Assembly: GCF_021531055.1 (NCBI RefSeq)
Contig: NZ_JADYTL010000005.1
Coordinates: 62,001 to 126,000 of the forward strand
From: Collinsella tanakaei
GTDB lineage: Bacteria; Actinomycetota; Coriobacteriia; Coriobacteriales; Coriobacteriaceae
Reading direction: 5' to 3'
Length of the DNA stretch: 64,000 nucleotides
Both the position numbers and the translations under genes were made by a program. Under the pieces are notes generated by a model. That model searched no databases and was not told where the DNA came from. It worked only from the letters and a program-made list of their open reading frames with translations. Below, one piece after another: positions 25,571 through 31,916 of the stretch. Every line of letters starts with the position of its first letter. Within the stretch, counting starts at the first letter, position 1.

Positions 25571-25576
25571 TACAAT
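25571..25576 (+). promoter_or_regulatory. extended -10 promoter of the cobalamin locus
   Basis: TACAAT is preceded by TGC, giving an extended -10 (TGnTACAAT). It lies just upstream of the riboswitch. No good -35 is seen. Confidence 0.55.
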
Positions 25577-25594
25577 CGGCGATGCATCGATATA

Positions 25595-25762
25595 TGGCCA
25601 GATGGATGGTGCGCAGACGCACGGCGGCGGCCAAGCCGACGCCAGGGGAACGGGGTGCGAAGCCCCGGCTGTACCAGCAACCGTGAATCCGGAACCGCAT
25701 GCGCGCGGTACCTCCGGACAAGCCGGATCGCCTCTCCATCACATGGGCCCTGGAGAGAAAGG
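25595..25762 (+). promoter_or_regulatory. cobalamin (adenosylcobalamin-type) riboswitch
   Basis: The conserved B12-box core is clear: GGGGAACGGGGTGCGAAGCC, then CCGGCTGTACCAGCAACCGT, matching the family's GGGAA...GGTG.GAA..CC and CTG.CC.GCAACYGT order. Downstream, CTCTCCA (25732-25738) can pair with TGGAGAG (25751-25757), which overlaps the Shine-Dalgarno AGAGAAAGG (25754-25762) of the next gene. This predicts translational repression when cobalamin is bound. Boundaries are approximate. Confidence 0.9.
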
Positions 25763-25769
25763 CATACCT

Positions 25770-26279
25770 ATGCGCAACCGAATCACCCAACCCGAAGCCC
25801 GCACGTCGCGTCGCCTGCTCGCGTCCCTCGTCCTGGCGCTCGCGCTCGCCGTGGGCGTCCTCGGCGGATGCACCCAGACCACCGCGTCGACCGACGACGG
25901 CTCCGCTGCCGGCTCCACCGTCGCGGCCCCTGCTGGCTCCGCGTCGACCGATGCGCCCGCCACAAGCGATGACGCGCAGATTTCCGTCCAGGTCGTCGTC
26001 GACTCCAGCGCCGCCGACGGCAGCGTGAGCTACGACGGCACCGTCGAGCTCGCCGAGGGCGCCACTGTTCTGGACGCCATCGAGGCGACCGGCCTTGAGC
26101 TCGACGTGCAGGATTCCGACTACGGTGCGTTCGTGAACGCCATCGACGGTCTTGCCACCGGCGACGCCGGCGACTCGAGCGGTTGGGGCTACGACCTCAA
26201 CGGCGAGATGGTCATGGAGTCCGCCGATGTGGCGACCGTGGCCGACGGCGACGTCCTCACCTGGACCTACCTGGTCTAA
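25770..26279 (+). CDS. DUF4430 (transcobalamin-like) lipoprotein
   Basis: 169 residues starting at MRNRITQPEARTSRRLLASL; AGAAAGG lies seven bases upstream. It has a signal peptide with lipobox LGGC (C about 37), a Ser/Thr/Ala-rich spacer (40-75), and a C-terminal domain of about 90 residues (VQVVVDSSAADGSVSYDGTV; EGATVLDAIEATGLELDV; SSGWGYDLNGEMV). This matches DUF4430, the fold also found as the C-terminal domain of animal transcobalamin and intrinsic factor. Placed behind a cobalamin riboswitch and before ECF transporter genes, it is probably an extracellular cobalamin- or corrinoid-binding partner. The substrate is inferred from context. Confidence 0.8.
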   Translation: MRNRITQPEARTSRRLLASLVLALALAVGVLGGCTQTTASTDDGSAAGSTVAAPAGSASTDAPATSDDAQISVQVVVDSSAADGSVSYDGTVELAEGATVLDAIEATGLELDVQDSDYGAFVNAIDGLATGDAGDSSGWGYDLNGEMVMESADVATVADGDVLTWTYLV

Positions 26280-26312
26280 TTGGGAAAATAGGGACTGTCC
26301 CTATTTTCCCAA
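26280..26312. repeat. family C perfect palindrome, copy 1
   Basis: TGGGAAAATAGGGAC and its exact complement around one T. It begins at the DUF4430 stop codon and ends 28 bases before ecfT. The same palindrome occurs at 31.9 kb. As RNA it would form a 15-bp hairpin that could lower read-through or protect the lipoprotein message. Confidence 0.85.
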
Positions 26313-26339
26313 TTCCGTTGTTTCTCACCGGATCTTCCC

Positions 26340-27209
26340 ATGGACCGCACGCCGCATAACCCGTTTTCCGCATACCATCCCGTCGTGGCCCTCACCTACC
26401 TGACGTGCGCCGCCGCGTTCGCCATGGCCGCCATGCAGCCGGTCTACGCCGCCCTTTCGCTCGTCGGCGCACTCGCATGCGCCGCGTGCACGCGGGGTGC
26501 GGGGAGCTTGCGGCACATGGCATGGCTTGTGGTCGTCGTGTTGGTGGTCGCCGGGGCGAACGTGCTGTTCGTCGGAGAGGGGGCGACCGTCCTGCTCTCC
26601 TGGGGGACGCGCGCGTTCACCCTCGAGGCGCTGCTATACGGCCTATGCTCCGGCATCATGCTCGCAGCGGTCTTCATCTGGATGATGAGCTGGTCGGCAT
26701 GCTTGGACAGCGCGTCGATCACGGCGCTGCTGGGACACGCCGCGCCCACCGTGTCGCTCATGATCTCTCAGGTCATGAGGCTCGTTCCGCAGTTTGCGCG
26801 GCGTGGGCGCACCGTGACCTCGGCGCTGGCAGCCACACCCGCTGCCGCTCCGCGAAACACGAACGAGTGCACCGCGGATGGCCTCCGCACGGTCTCGGTC
26901 CTCATGGGCTGGGGCCTCGAGGACAGCCTCGTCCGCGCGGACGCCATGCACGCCCGCGGATACGCGTGCGGAGCCGTGCGGACCACGTACCGGCGCTATC
27001 GGATCAAGCGGACCGACATCGCCGCACTTGCGATCATCGTCGCGTTCGTGCTGGCAAACGTGCCCCTCGTATCCATCGCCTGCTCGCAGTACGCCTTCTA
27101 CCCCACCCCGCCGCGCCTCGTGGCGTGGTGGGGCTACCTGCCGTACGCCGCGTTCGTGCTGTATCCCGTGGCGCTCACCTTCCGGGAGTGGTGGCTATGG
27201 CGCGCGTAG
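26340..27209 (+). CDS. ecfT: EcfT transmembrane coupling subunit of an ECF transporter
   Basis: 289 residues with five to six hydrophobic segments (for example YLTCAAAFAMAAMQPVYAAL; IAALAIIVAFVLANVPLVS). The two cytosolic coupling helices carry the ARG-type motifs that dock on EcfA ATPases: VPQFARRGR (about 150) and DAMHARGYA (about 205). Preceded by the riboswitch-controlled lipoprotein gene. The 3' end overlaps the start of the fusion gene by 13 bases, so translation is probably coupled. Confidence 0.85.
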   Translation: MDRTPHNPFSAYHPVVALTYLTCAAAFAMAAMQPVYAALSLVGALACAACTRGAGSLRHMAWLVVVVLVVAGANVLFVGEGATVLLSWGTRAFTLEALLYGLCSGIMLAAVFIWMMSWSACLDSASITALLGHAAPTVSLMISQVMRLVPQFARRGRTVTSALAATPAAAPRNTNECTADGLRTVSVLMGWGLEDSLVRADAMHARGYACGAVRTTYRRYRIKRTDIAALAIIVAFVLANVPLVSIACSQYAFYPTPPRLVAWWGYLPYAAFVLYPVALTFREWWLWRA

Positions 27210-29545
27210 GGAACATCGACGTGGGTCGCGCCGTCGAGCAGGCGACAGCAGGCGAGACGCCCGTCGTGCGCATCCGCGGATTCTCCTTCTCCTACGCCGG
27301 CGGCGAGGACGCACCCGTGATCGACGACGTCTCGCTCGATGTGGCGCCGGGATCGTTCTGTGTCATCACCGGACCCACCGGCTGCGGCAAGACCACGCTG
27401 CTGCGCTGCCTTAAGCCCGAACTCGCGCCCGCCGGCATCCGGCATGGCGGCATCGAGGTGCTCGGCTACGAGCTGGCGGCGGGCGGCGGCCAAGCCGGCG
27501 CCATGGATCCGCGCCGTTCCGCCACCGACATCGGCTTCGTCATGCAGGACCCCGCTGCGCAGATCGTATGCGACACCGTCTGGCACGAACTCGCCTTCGG
27601 GCTCGAGAACATCGGCATGCCGCAAGCCGAGATGCGCCGCCGTATCGCGGAGGTCGCGCATTTCTTCGGCATCGAGCCGATCATGCACGCCGCGACCGAC
27701 ACGTTGTCCGGCGGCCAGCAACAGCTCGTCAACCTCGCCGCCGTGCTGGCGCTGCGTCCACGCCTCATCGTGCTCGACGAGCCCACCGCGCAGCTCGATC
27801 CCAACGCGCGCCGCCAATTCCTCTTCCTGCTGGAACGCGTGAGGCGCGAGCTGGCCATCACGGTCATCATGTCGACGCATCTTCTCGAGGAAACGGAGGC
27901 GTACGCCACGCAGACGCTCGAGCTCGGAAATCCCGTTCCCGCCGCGACGCGCGCCGAGCTGGAAACCCTGCTCGCCGGACACTGGGACGCGTGGGAGGAG
28001 CGGGCGGTCCGCACGGATGCGCCCGCGCTCACCGCTCGGGACCTGCACCTTCGATACGACCGCTTTGGGGCGGAGGTCCTTCGCGGGGCGGATATCGCCA
28101 TCGCGCGCGCCAGCGTCCACGCGATCGTGGGCGGCAACGGATGCGGCAAGTCCACGCTGCTCAAGGCCCTTGCCGGCATCCTTCGCCCGCAACGGGGACG
28201 TGTGGAGAACGCCTCTGCGGAACAACAGGCGTACCTGCCGCAGGATCCCAAAGCCCTGCTGGTGTGCGACACCGTGGCCGACGAGCTCGCCGAGTGGCAG
28301 GATCGCTGCGGCTATGGTGCGGCCGACGTGCAGCGCATCGTCTGCAAGCTCGGTCTCGACGGGCTCGAGGATCGCCATCCCTTCGACCTCTCCGGCGGCC
28401 AGCAGCAGAAGCTCGCACTGGCGAAACTGCTGCTCACCGACCCCGACCTGCTCTTTTTGGATGAGCCGACCAAGGGCCTGGACCCCGCCGGCACGGCGGA
28501 GGTCATCCGTATCCTGTGCGGCCTTGCGCGCGAGGGGCGCTCCGTGGTGCTCGTGACCCACGATCTCGACGTCGCATTCGCCGTGGCCGATGAGGTGTCG
28601 CTGCTCTTCGACGGCGAGGTCGCCTGCACCGAGCCCGCACGCGTTTTCTTCGAGCGCAGCCTGCTCTATCGTCCCCACGACCGCGCGCGCCTCTATGGGG
28701 AGTTACTCGCCCAAGATGATGGTGAAAAGGCTCCGGATGCACCGGATTGCGACGATTCGCGCCCCTTGTACGTCGCCGAGACTCCCGCGGATGACCCCGC
28801 GCCCGAACGCTGCGACGCGGTTTGTCCCAAACTGCGATCCCACCACTCCCCCTTTGTGGAAACCCTGGCGCTACTCATCGTCCCCATCGTGCTCGTCGCC
28901 TCCGGGCTCATCGGGTTCTCGCAGACTGCTCTGCTGTCGTTTGCCGTGGTTATCGCCGCGATCGCCGTCTTTTTCTCCTCGTACGAGCGCGGCGGGGCAC
29001 GCCTGCGCGAAATCATGCCCACCGTGGTGCTCGCGGCGCTCGCCGCTGCCGGCCGCATCCTGTTCGCCGCCGTCCCGAGCGTCAAGCCGGTCAGCGCCAT
29101 CGCCATCATCGCGGGCGTTGCCCTGGGCCGTCGCGCAGGCTTCATGGTCGGCGCGCTCGCAGCTTTGGTCTCGAATTTCTTCTTCGGACAGGGACCCTGG
29201 ACACCCTGGCAGATGTACGCCTGGGGCCTCGTGGGCTACGGTGCGGGTGTGCTCGCCAGGACAGGGCTGTTCGGGGGCGAAGGATCCCAGCTTCGCGACC
29301 GCCTCGGCGGCGTCGCTCTTCTGGCATACGGCTTCCTCTCGTCGGTCGCGTACGGATGGATCCTGAACGCCTGGTCGATCCTGGGCTTTCTCCACACGGG
29401 CCTGGGATTCAACCTGCTGGCGGTCTACGCCGCGTCGCTTCCCTTCGACATCGCCCACGGTGCGGCGACCGTCGTCTTCCTCGCCGCCCTCTACGTCCCC
29501 TGGCGCCGCAAGCTCGCGCGCATCATCCGCCGCTACGGCATCTGA
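27197..29545 (+). CDS. EcfA-EcfA-S triple fusion of an ECF transporter
   Basis: 782 residues from MARVGNIDVGRAVEQATAGE; the longer open frame up to 26405 overlaps ecfT and is rejected. Two complete ABC domains come first: Walker A GPTGCGKT (59-66) and GGNGCGKS (about 312-320), signature LSGGQQQ in both (about 170 and 398), Walker B LIVLDEP and LLFLDEP, switch His in MSTHLL and VTHDLD. After a linker (about 500-550), six hydrophobic segments form an S component (RILFAAVPSVKPVSAIAIIA; GFMVGALAALVSNFFFGQGP). In known ECF systems the S component is usually a separate protein. With the riboswitch and DUF4430 partner, cobalamin or a precursor is the likely substrate. Confidence 0.88.
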   Translation: MARVGNIDVGRAVEQATAGETPVVRIRGFSFSYAGGEDAPVIDDVSLDVAPGSFCVITGPTGCGKTTLLRCLKPELAPAGIRHGGIEVLGYELAAGGGQAGAMDPRRSATDIGFVMQDPAAQIVCDTVWHELAFGLENIGMPQAEMRRRIAEVAHFFGIEPIMHAATDTLSGGQQQLVNLAAVLALRPRLIVLDEPTAQLDPNARRQFLFLLERVRRELAITVIMSTHLLEETEAYATQTLELGNPVPAATRAELETLLAGHWDAWEERAVRTDAPALTARDLHLRYDRFGAEVLRGADIAIARASVHAIVGGNGCGKSTLLKALAGILRPQRGRVENASAEQQAYLPQDPKALLVCDTVADELAEWQDRCGYGAADVQRIVCKLGLDGLEDRHPFDLSGGQQQKLALAKLLLTDPDLLFLDEPTKGLDPAGTAEVIRILCGLAREGRSVVLVTHDLDVAFAVADEVSLLFDGEVACTEPARVFFERSLLYRPHDRARLYGELLAQDDGEKAPDAPDCDDSRPLYVAETPADDPAPERCDAVCPKLRSHHSPFVETLALLIVPIVLVASGLIGFSQTALLSFAVVIAAIAVFFSSYERGGARLREIMPTVVLAALAAAGRILFAAVPSVKPVSAIAIIAGVALGRRAGFMVGALAALVSNFFFGQGPWTPWQMYAWGLVGYGAGVLARTGLFGGEGSQLRDRLGGVALLAYGFLSSVAYGWILNAWSILGFLHTGLGFNLLAVYAASLPFDIAHGAATVVFLAALYVPWRRKLARIIRRYGI

Positions 29546-29546
29546 T

Positions 29547-29664
29547 CCGACAACTTGGGGCCAGGTGCAAACTTGTCGCCCTGGCACCAAAAAAGGGCGG
29601 ATTCCGTCGATTGAACGGAATCCGCCCCTAGGCGACAAGTTTGCACCTGTCCCCAAGTTGTCGG
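29547..29664. repeat. family B inverted repeat, copy 2, enclosing a terminator
   Basis: Arms at 29547-29580 and 29631-29664 share the family B ends (CGACAACTTGGGGCCAGGTG and complement with a few mismatches). A partial third arm (GGCCCCAAGTTGTC) follows to 29676 and touches the fabT stop. The centre holds the fab operon terminator. Confidence 0.8.
29589..29628 (-). terminator. terminator of the fatty-acid operon
   Basis: GGGCGGATTCCGT (29595-29607) pairs with ACGGAATCCGCCC (29615-29627), followed on minus by six T. It lies 47 bases past the fabT stop and also faces the end of the ECF locus. Confidence 0.85.
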
Positions 29665-31887: not shown

Positions 31888-31916
31888 GGAAAAATAGGGA
31901 CAGTCCCTATTTTCCC
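31888..31916. repeat. family C palindrome, copy 2
   Basis: AAAATAGGGAC and GTCCCTATTTT around one A, flanked by GGA and TCCC. Same core as the palindrome between the DUF4430 and ecfT genes. Here it lies 44 bases before the fabF ATG. Confidence 0.8.

Follow-up and report, generated by a model that had tools for sequence, protein, structure and literature searches.

We find that an operon in a 64,000-nucleotide stretch of the Collinsella tanakaei genome (hereafter, the window) joins the two ATPase domains and the S component of an ECF transporter in a single 782-residue protein, and that this operon is, very probably, a dedicated cobalamin/cobinamide importer of the CbrT type, with cobinamide probably serving as a further cargo. 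The kind of transporter is already known; the novelty is the EcfA–EcfA'–S (A-A-S) fusion.

Operon layout and kinship of the S component with CbrT

The four parts named in a preliminary description of this DNA (a riboswitch, a lipoprotein, EcfT and an A-A-S protein) were all found in place on the forward strand. The putative cobalamin riboswitch leader (25595–25769) is followed by the genes for a 169-residue lipoprotein (25770–26279), a divergent EcfT of 289 residues (26340–27209) and the fusion protein (27197–29545), the last two reading frames overlapping by 13 nucleotides. The operon thus encodes the two ATPases, the EcfT and the membrane S component that define an ECF (type III ABC) transporter, and the S gene is linked to A and T genes of its own, a conserved linkage that places the transporter in group I (dedicated). 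The ECF class was reportedly defined by Rodionov in 2009. The gene set is presumably the one that appears under the SEED annotation names CbrTUV and “additional lipoprotein component”, in which case the fusion would join CbrU and CbrT.

The preliminary assignment of EcfT holds, as a family profile matches solved EcfT chains with an E-value of 1.5e-16; Pfam CbiQ gave no match to the window’s EcfT alone, and the EcfT of some relatives does match this family (PF02361). Domain searches likewise bear out the two ABC domains and the S component of the A-A-S protein, with the first ABC domain at residues ~22–245, the second at ~275–490, a linker at ~495–548 and the S component at ~546–782.

A profile of the S component, built from 46 sequences, was compared with solved structures and ranks CbrT above other S components (6FNP_A, E 1.3e-18), the second match being RibU (E 0.018). 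6FNP is ECF-CbrT, a B12 transporter characterised in 2018 (PMC5997447). The family of no other vitamin was preferred, and this result supports the earlier proposal of a self-contained cobalamin or corrinoid importer that brings its own lipoprotein for capture at the surface. A riboflavin S component was considered and dropped, the Pfam ECF-ribofla_trS match of 28.7 bits being read as a general match to the S fold. The AF2 model of the S component (pLDDT 92.6; all structure predictions were of single chains) adopts the ECF S fold, with a Z score of 15.3 to 4hzu_S. 6FNP is absent from the listed matches of the structure search with this model, and the link to CbrT therefore rests on sequence profiles.

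The closest solved relative of the S component, ECF-CbrT of Lactobacillus delbrueckii (6FNP; eLife 2018, PMC5997447), imports cobalamin and cobinamide, but it belongs to group II, with CbrT a separate 182-residue protein on an ECF module common to other S components. In contrast, the Collinsella S component is dedicated, is fused to two ATPase domains and carries two extra N-terminal membrane helices, whose sequence is also present in unfused relatives. Since the number of added helices is even, the S core would keep the orientation usual for it, and the fused ATPase would lie on the cytosolic side. Within the S core we also note a conserved motif, GQGPWTPWQM.

A cobalamin riboswitch leader supported by comparison

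The AdoCbl-II-type core of the leader lies at 25645–25696, where RF01689 matches with 29.7 bits (E 5.5e-5 in a search of 501 bases), below the Rfam gathering score of 36.5 bits. Consequently, a gathering scan of the whole window missed the riboswitch, and E-value mode together with comparative models was needed. In the 2.23-Mb genome (98.5% complete), this segment is the sole match to RF01689 (E 5.8e-5 genome-wide) or RF00174.

An alignment of seven related Collinsella leaders reveals conservation over ~190 nucleotides, with long invariant stretches. We built a model of the riboswitch core (66 positions, from 16 loci) and ran it on 84 sources (967 kb), obtaining 35 matches, all on the operon strand; 34 of them precede the operon and one, in L088, follows it, and ~20 fall outside the loci on which the model was trained. 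In five relatives (L019, L066, L074, L086 and L089), cobalamin riboswitches above the Rfam cut-offs precede the operon, with an RF01689 score of 37.3 bits in L019. The relatives and the core model together support reading the leader as a homologous cobalamin riboswitch. The “clear” B12 riboswitch of the preliminary description is therefore upheld as to its presence, by comparative evidence, but not as to its clarity, given a score below the curated cut-off.

Just 5' of the ATG, CTCTCCA (25732–25738) and TGGAGAG (25751–25757) form the perfect arms of a hairpin, the 3' arm of which falls within a purine-rich sequence resembling a ribosome site. In the Collinsella leader alignment, where most pairs are invariant, the TCCATC strand is predicted to pair also with an upstream GATGGA. 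This suggests that two pairings alternate and that translation is the step controlled. Folding of the single leader sequence was not significant (z −1.2) and the covariation term of the alignment was slightly unfavourable, so that the predicted leader structure rests on homology.

A lipoprotein with the fold of the B12-binding beta domain

The lipoprotein comprises a signal sequence with a lipobox (LGGC, C34), a stalk of low complexity and a single DUF4430 domain (PF14478; 47.1 bits against a cut-off of 23.8, E 3.2e-12). Its AF2 model (pLDDT 96) matches haptocorrin (Z 16.1), intrinsic factor (15.5) and transcobalamin (14.3–15.2), in each case through their B12-binding beta domain, as well as the Ruminococcus protein 3U7Z (14.2), while the best unrelated structure after these reaches 8.7. 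Identity to the beta domains of 4KKI, 3KQ4 and 2BB5 is 12–22%, at Z scores of 14.6–16.1, and by sequence alone the link to haptocorrin is weak (E 0.05). The model also contains a beta-hairpin after a helix (helix 32–38, strands 43–48 and 51–57), a feature that the accessible part of Burroughs et al. (PMC1796856) gives as defining the transcobalamin clade. The profile match and the model Z scores of 14–16 confirm that DUF4430 shares the fold of the transcobalamin/intrinsic factor domain, as had been proposed.

In haptocorrin, intrinsic factor and transcobalamin (4KKI, 3KQ4, 2BB5), this beta domain is accompanied by an alpha/alpha toroid, whereas the Collinsella protein is a lone beta domain on a lipid anchor. 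The mammalian carriers use the toroid too, which counts against the importer reading of a beta-only lipoprotein. The closest bacterial solved homologue, 3U7Z, is moreover annotated as a “putative metal binding protein”, and the lipoprotein could accordingly act in sensing or as an accessory protein that binds metal. We consider this unlikely, as B12-binding beta domains match the fold far better than other beta-grasp proteins do, the lipoprotein is found together with cobalamin riboswitches, and in relatives a toroid-like region is joined to DUF4430, as in intrinsic factor. A capture protein remains our preferred reading. BtuG and BtuH of Bacteroides (PMC6143338, PMC8941943) are likewise surface lipoproteins that catch B12 for an importer, but BtuG is a beta-propeller and both serve the outer-membrane, TonB-dependent BtuB, while the Collinsella lipoprotein would serve a Gram-positive ECF transporter.

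A transcobalamin-like protein beside ECF genes is not new. The accessible part of Burroughs et al. 2007 (PMC1796856) describes transcobalamin-like proteins on the surface of bacteria, some standing alone and others joined to toroids or propellers, in CbiO/CbiQ-like operons, and predicts that they are likely B12 scavengers. As in the present system, these transcobalamin-like SLBB proteins are extracellular beta-grasp proteins whose genes accompany those for an ECF ATPase and T protein; an A-A-S fusion, a CbrT identity and a riboswitch are not among the features described in that part of the paper. With the operon described here, a bacterial transcobalamin-type domain that stands alone is connected to a defined B12 transporter of gut Collinsella.

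Cargo and genomic context

Substrates diverge among S components, and the cargo could instead be cobinamide alone, a corrinoid with a variant lower ligand, haem, some other tetrapyrrole or a different ligand, not cobalamin itself; for some archaeal members, the accessible part of Burroughs 2007 (PMC1796856) raises scavenging of other metabolites as a possibility, and a haem ECF transporter is reported in PMC7299338. Any such cargo seems to us quite improbable, considering that CbrT is by far the closest solved relative of the S component and takes cobalamin and cobinamide but refuses hemin (PMC5997447), that cobalamin riboswitches occur in the same operons, and that the lipoprotein has the transcobalamin beta-domain fold.

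Cobalamin as cargo also agrees with the rest of the genome, where the presence of the B12-dependent methionine synthase MetH (L099) and the lack of any GATase_3 match (CbiA/CobQ type) over the cut-off are consistent with B12 scavenging. No BtuCDF-type FecCD permease or Peripla_BP_2 binding protein is encoded within the operon. The suggestion that the importer replaces BtuCDF was nevertheless not borne out, since one FecCD/Peripla_BP_2/ATPase operon, without a B12 riboswitch, is present elsewhere in the genome. In a FecCD operon at L098 (5945–9338, minus strand), the ATPase bears a C-terminal extension of ~130 residues.

Conservation of gene order among relatives

We compared gene order in 80 genome-contig loci. 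The T-AA-S order is found in nearly all of those with enough sequence, mostly with the lipoprotein in front, and loci with lipoprotein-T-AA-S range from Coriobacteriia to Bacillales. The fusion is absent from most relatives. By locus comparison and tree, the closest relatives of the operon are from Collinsella.

Five aerofaciens-type Collinsella loci (L107 and L109–L112; species assignment inferred) keep T-AA-S, and neither a lipoprotein nor a riboswitch was detected near T-AA-S in these or in the fused L118 and L120. The riboswitch and the lipoprotein are therefore not indispensable. Other relatives have gained a component, with an extra large surface protein encoded between the riboswitch and the lipoprotein gene, and the operon in the window is a minimal form among those of its relatives. 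In L033, L039, L066 and L089 the extra protein is toroid-like (Pfam matches partly weak), and in L031, L051, L065, L067, L074 and L087 it is a PQQ-type beta-propeller; DUF4430 is attached in some members of both types, and LPXTG in some of the toroid-like ones. Such large secreted propeller proteins in B12-riboswitch operons of other Coriobacteriia and of Bacillota resemble Bacteroides BtuG in plan. One Bacillus protein (L089, 1270–3249), encoded directly 3' of a strong cobalamin riboswitch, carries LPXTG, a toroid-like region with a weak match and two copies of DUF4430; its domains form a set like that of intrinsic factor on a protein of the bacterial wall.

The A-A-S fusion is genuine and arose at least twice

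The A-A-S reading frame (27197–29545) contains no internal stop. The AA and S parts share one frame in L010–L014, L021, L022, L085 and L019. All other loci have them as separate genes, most of which overlap or lie next to each other; those of Atopobiaceae are at least several hundred bases apart. A Gordonibacter locus (L079) containing a run of N was left out as a fused case. In the tree, nine fused rows of the Collinsella clade, including the window, form one fully supported group in which all nine fusions are intact. The fused L019 stands apart from this clade, among unfused rows, which argues for at least two origins of the fusion. In a survey of the family, the S domain was present in 63 of 67 genomes, in a majority as a short frame and in about a dozen within a long fused frame.

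A sequencing or assembly error that deleted a stop codon, which the separate, adjacent or overlapping AA and S genes of most relatives might bring to mind, is hardly credible, because independent assemblies, namely the nine clade rows, the separately fused L019 and other fused genomes, all keep the junction frame open. The fusion of the preliminary description is therefore real. A separate start for the S component is also unlikely, as there is no in-frame ATG between residues 471 and 606, though GTG and TTG codons are present.

The S component presumably cannot be swapped onto a shared module. It was probably dedicated before the fusion, given that in relatives without the fusion its gene is placed in the same way, next to partners of its own. 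ECF subunits are “sometimes” fused in multidomain proteins according to the literature, and our literature search, which took in subscription journals only in small part, found no description of an A-A-S fusion of CbrT.

Proposed transport by a tethered S component

When intracellular cobalamin is low, the leader would leave the ribosome site open and the operon would be expressed. The lipoprotein would then catch a corrinoid on the outside of the membrane via its transcobalamin-type beta domain and hand it to the S component, which would topple against EcfT and let the cargo go on the inner side; the two fused ATPase domains would then use ATP to reset the S component. The S component would remain tethered to the second ATPase domain via the ~50-residue linker and the two extra membrane helices. 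Owing to this covalent tether, the S component would move at most a short distance from the motor between cycles and could neither diffuse away nor be replaced.

Full expulsion of the S component is thought to be integral to ECF transport. A tentative proposal, which we hold to be possible but doubtful, is that the fused CbrT completes cobalamin transport while staying at its motor throughout, the linker and the two extra helices forming a hinge for toppling in place; if true, it would show that full expulsion is dispensable. Nature has in this fusion set up a test of whether the S component needs to leave the motor during transport, and the fused CbrT-type protein and its unfused sisters, whose S domains share ~55–60% identity with the fused one, provide a ready comparison.

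Repeats within and downstream of the operon

A consensus promoter scan gave no match. Between the lipoprotein and EcfT genes lies a palindrome with perfect 18-bp arms (26278–26314, AATTGGGAAAATAGGGAC-T-GTCCCTATTTTCCCAATT), a copy of a genome-wide repeat with a further site in the window at 31893–31911. Its core occurs at ~27 genome sites with at most two mismatches and at none in a reversed control. The palindrome is thus a small dispersed repeat, possibly with a terminator-like role. Downstream of the operon, at 29547–29664, a 34-nucleotide inverted repeat (97% complementary) encloses a nested 13-bp hairpin at 29595–29627.
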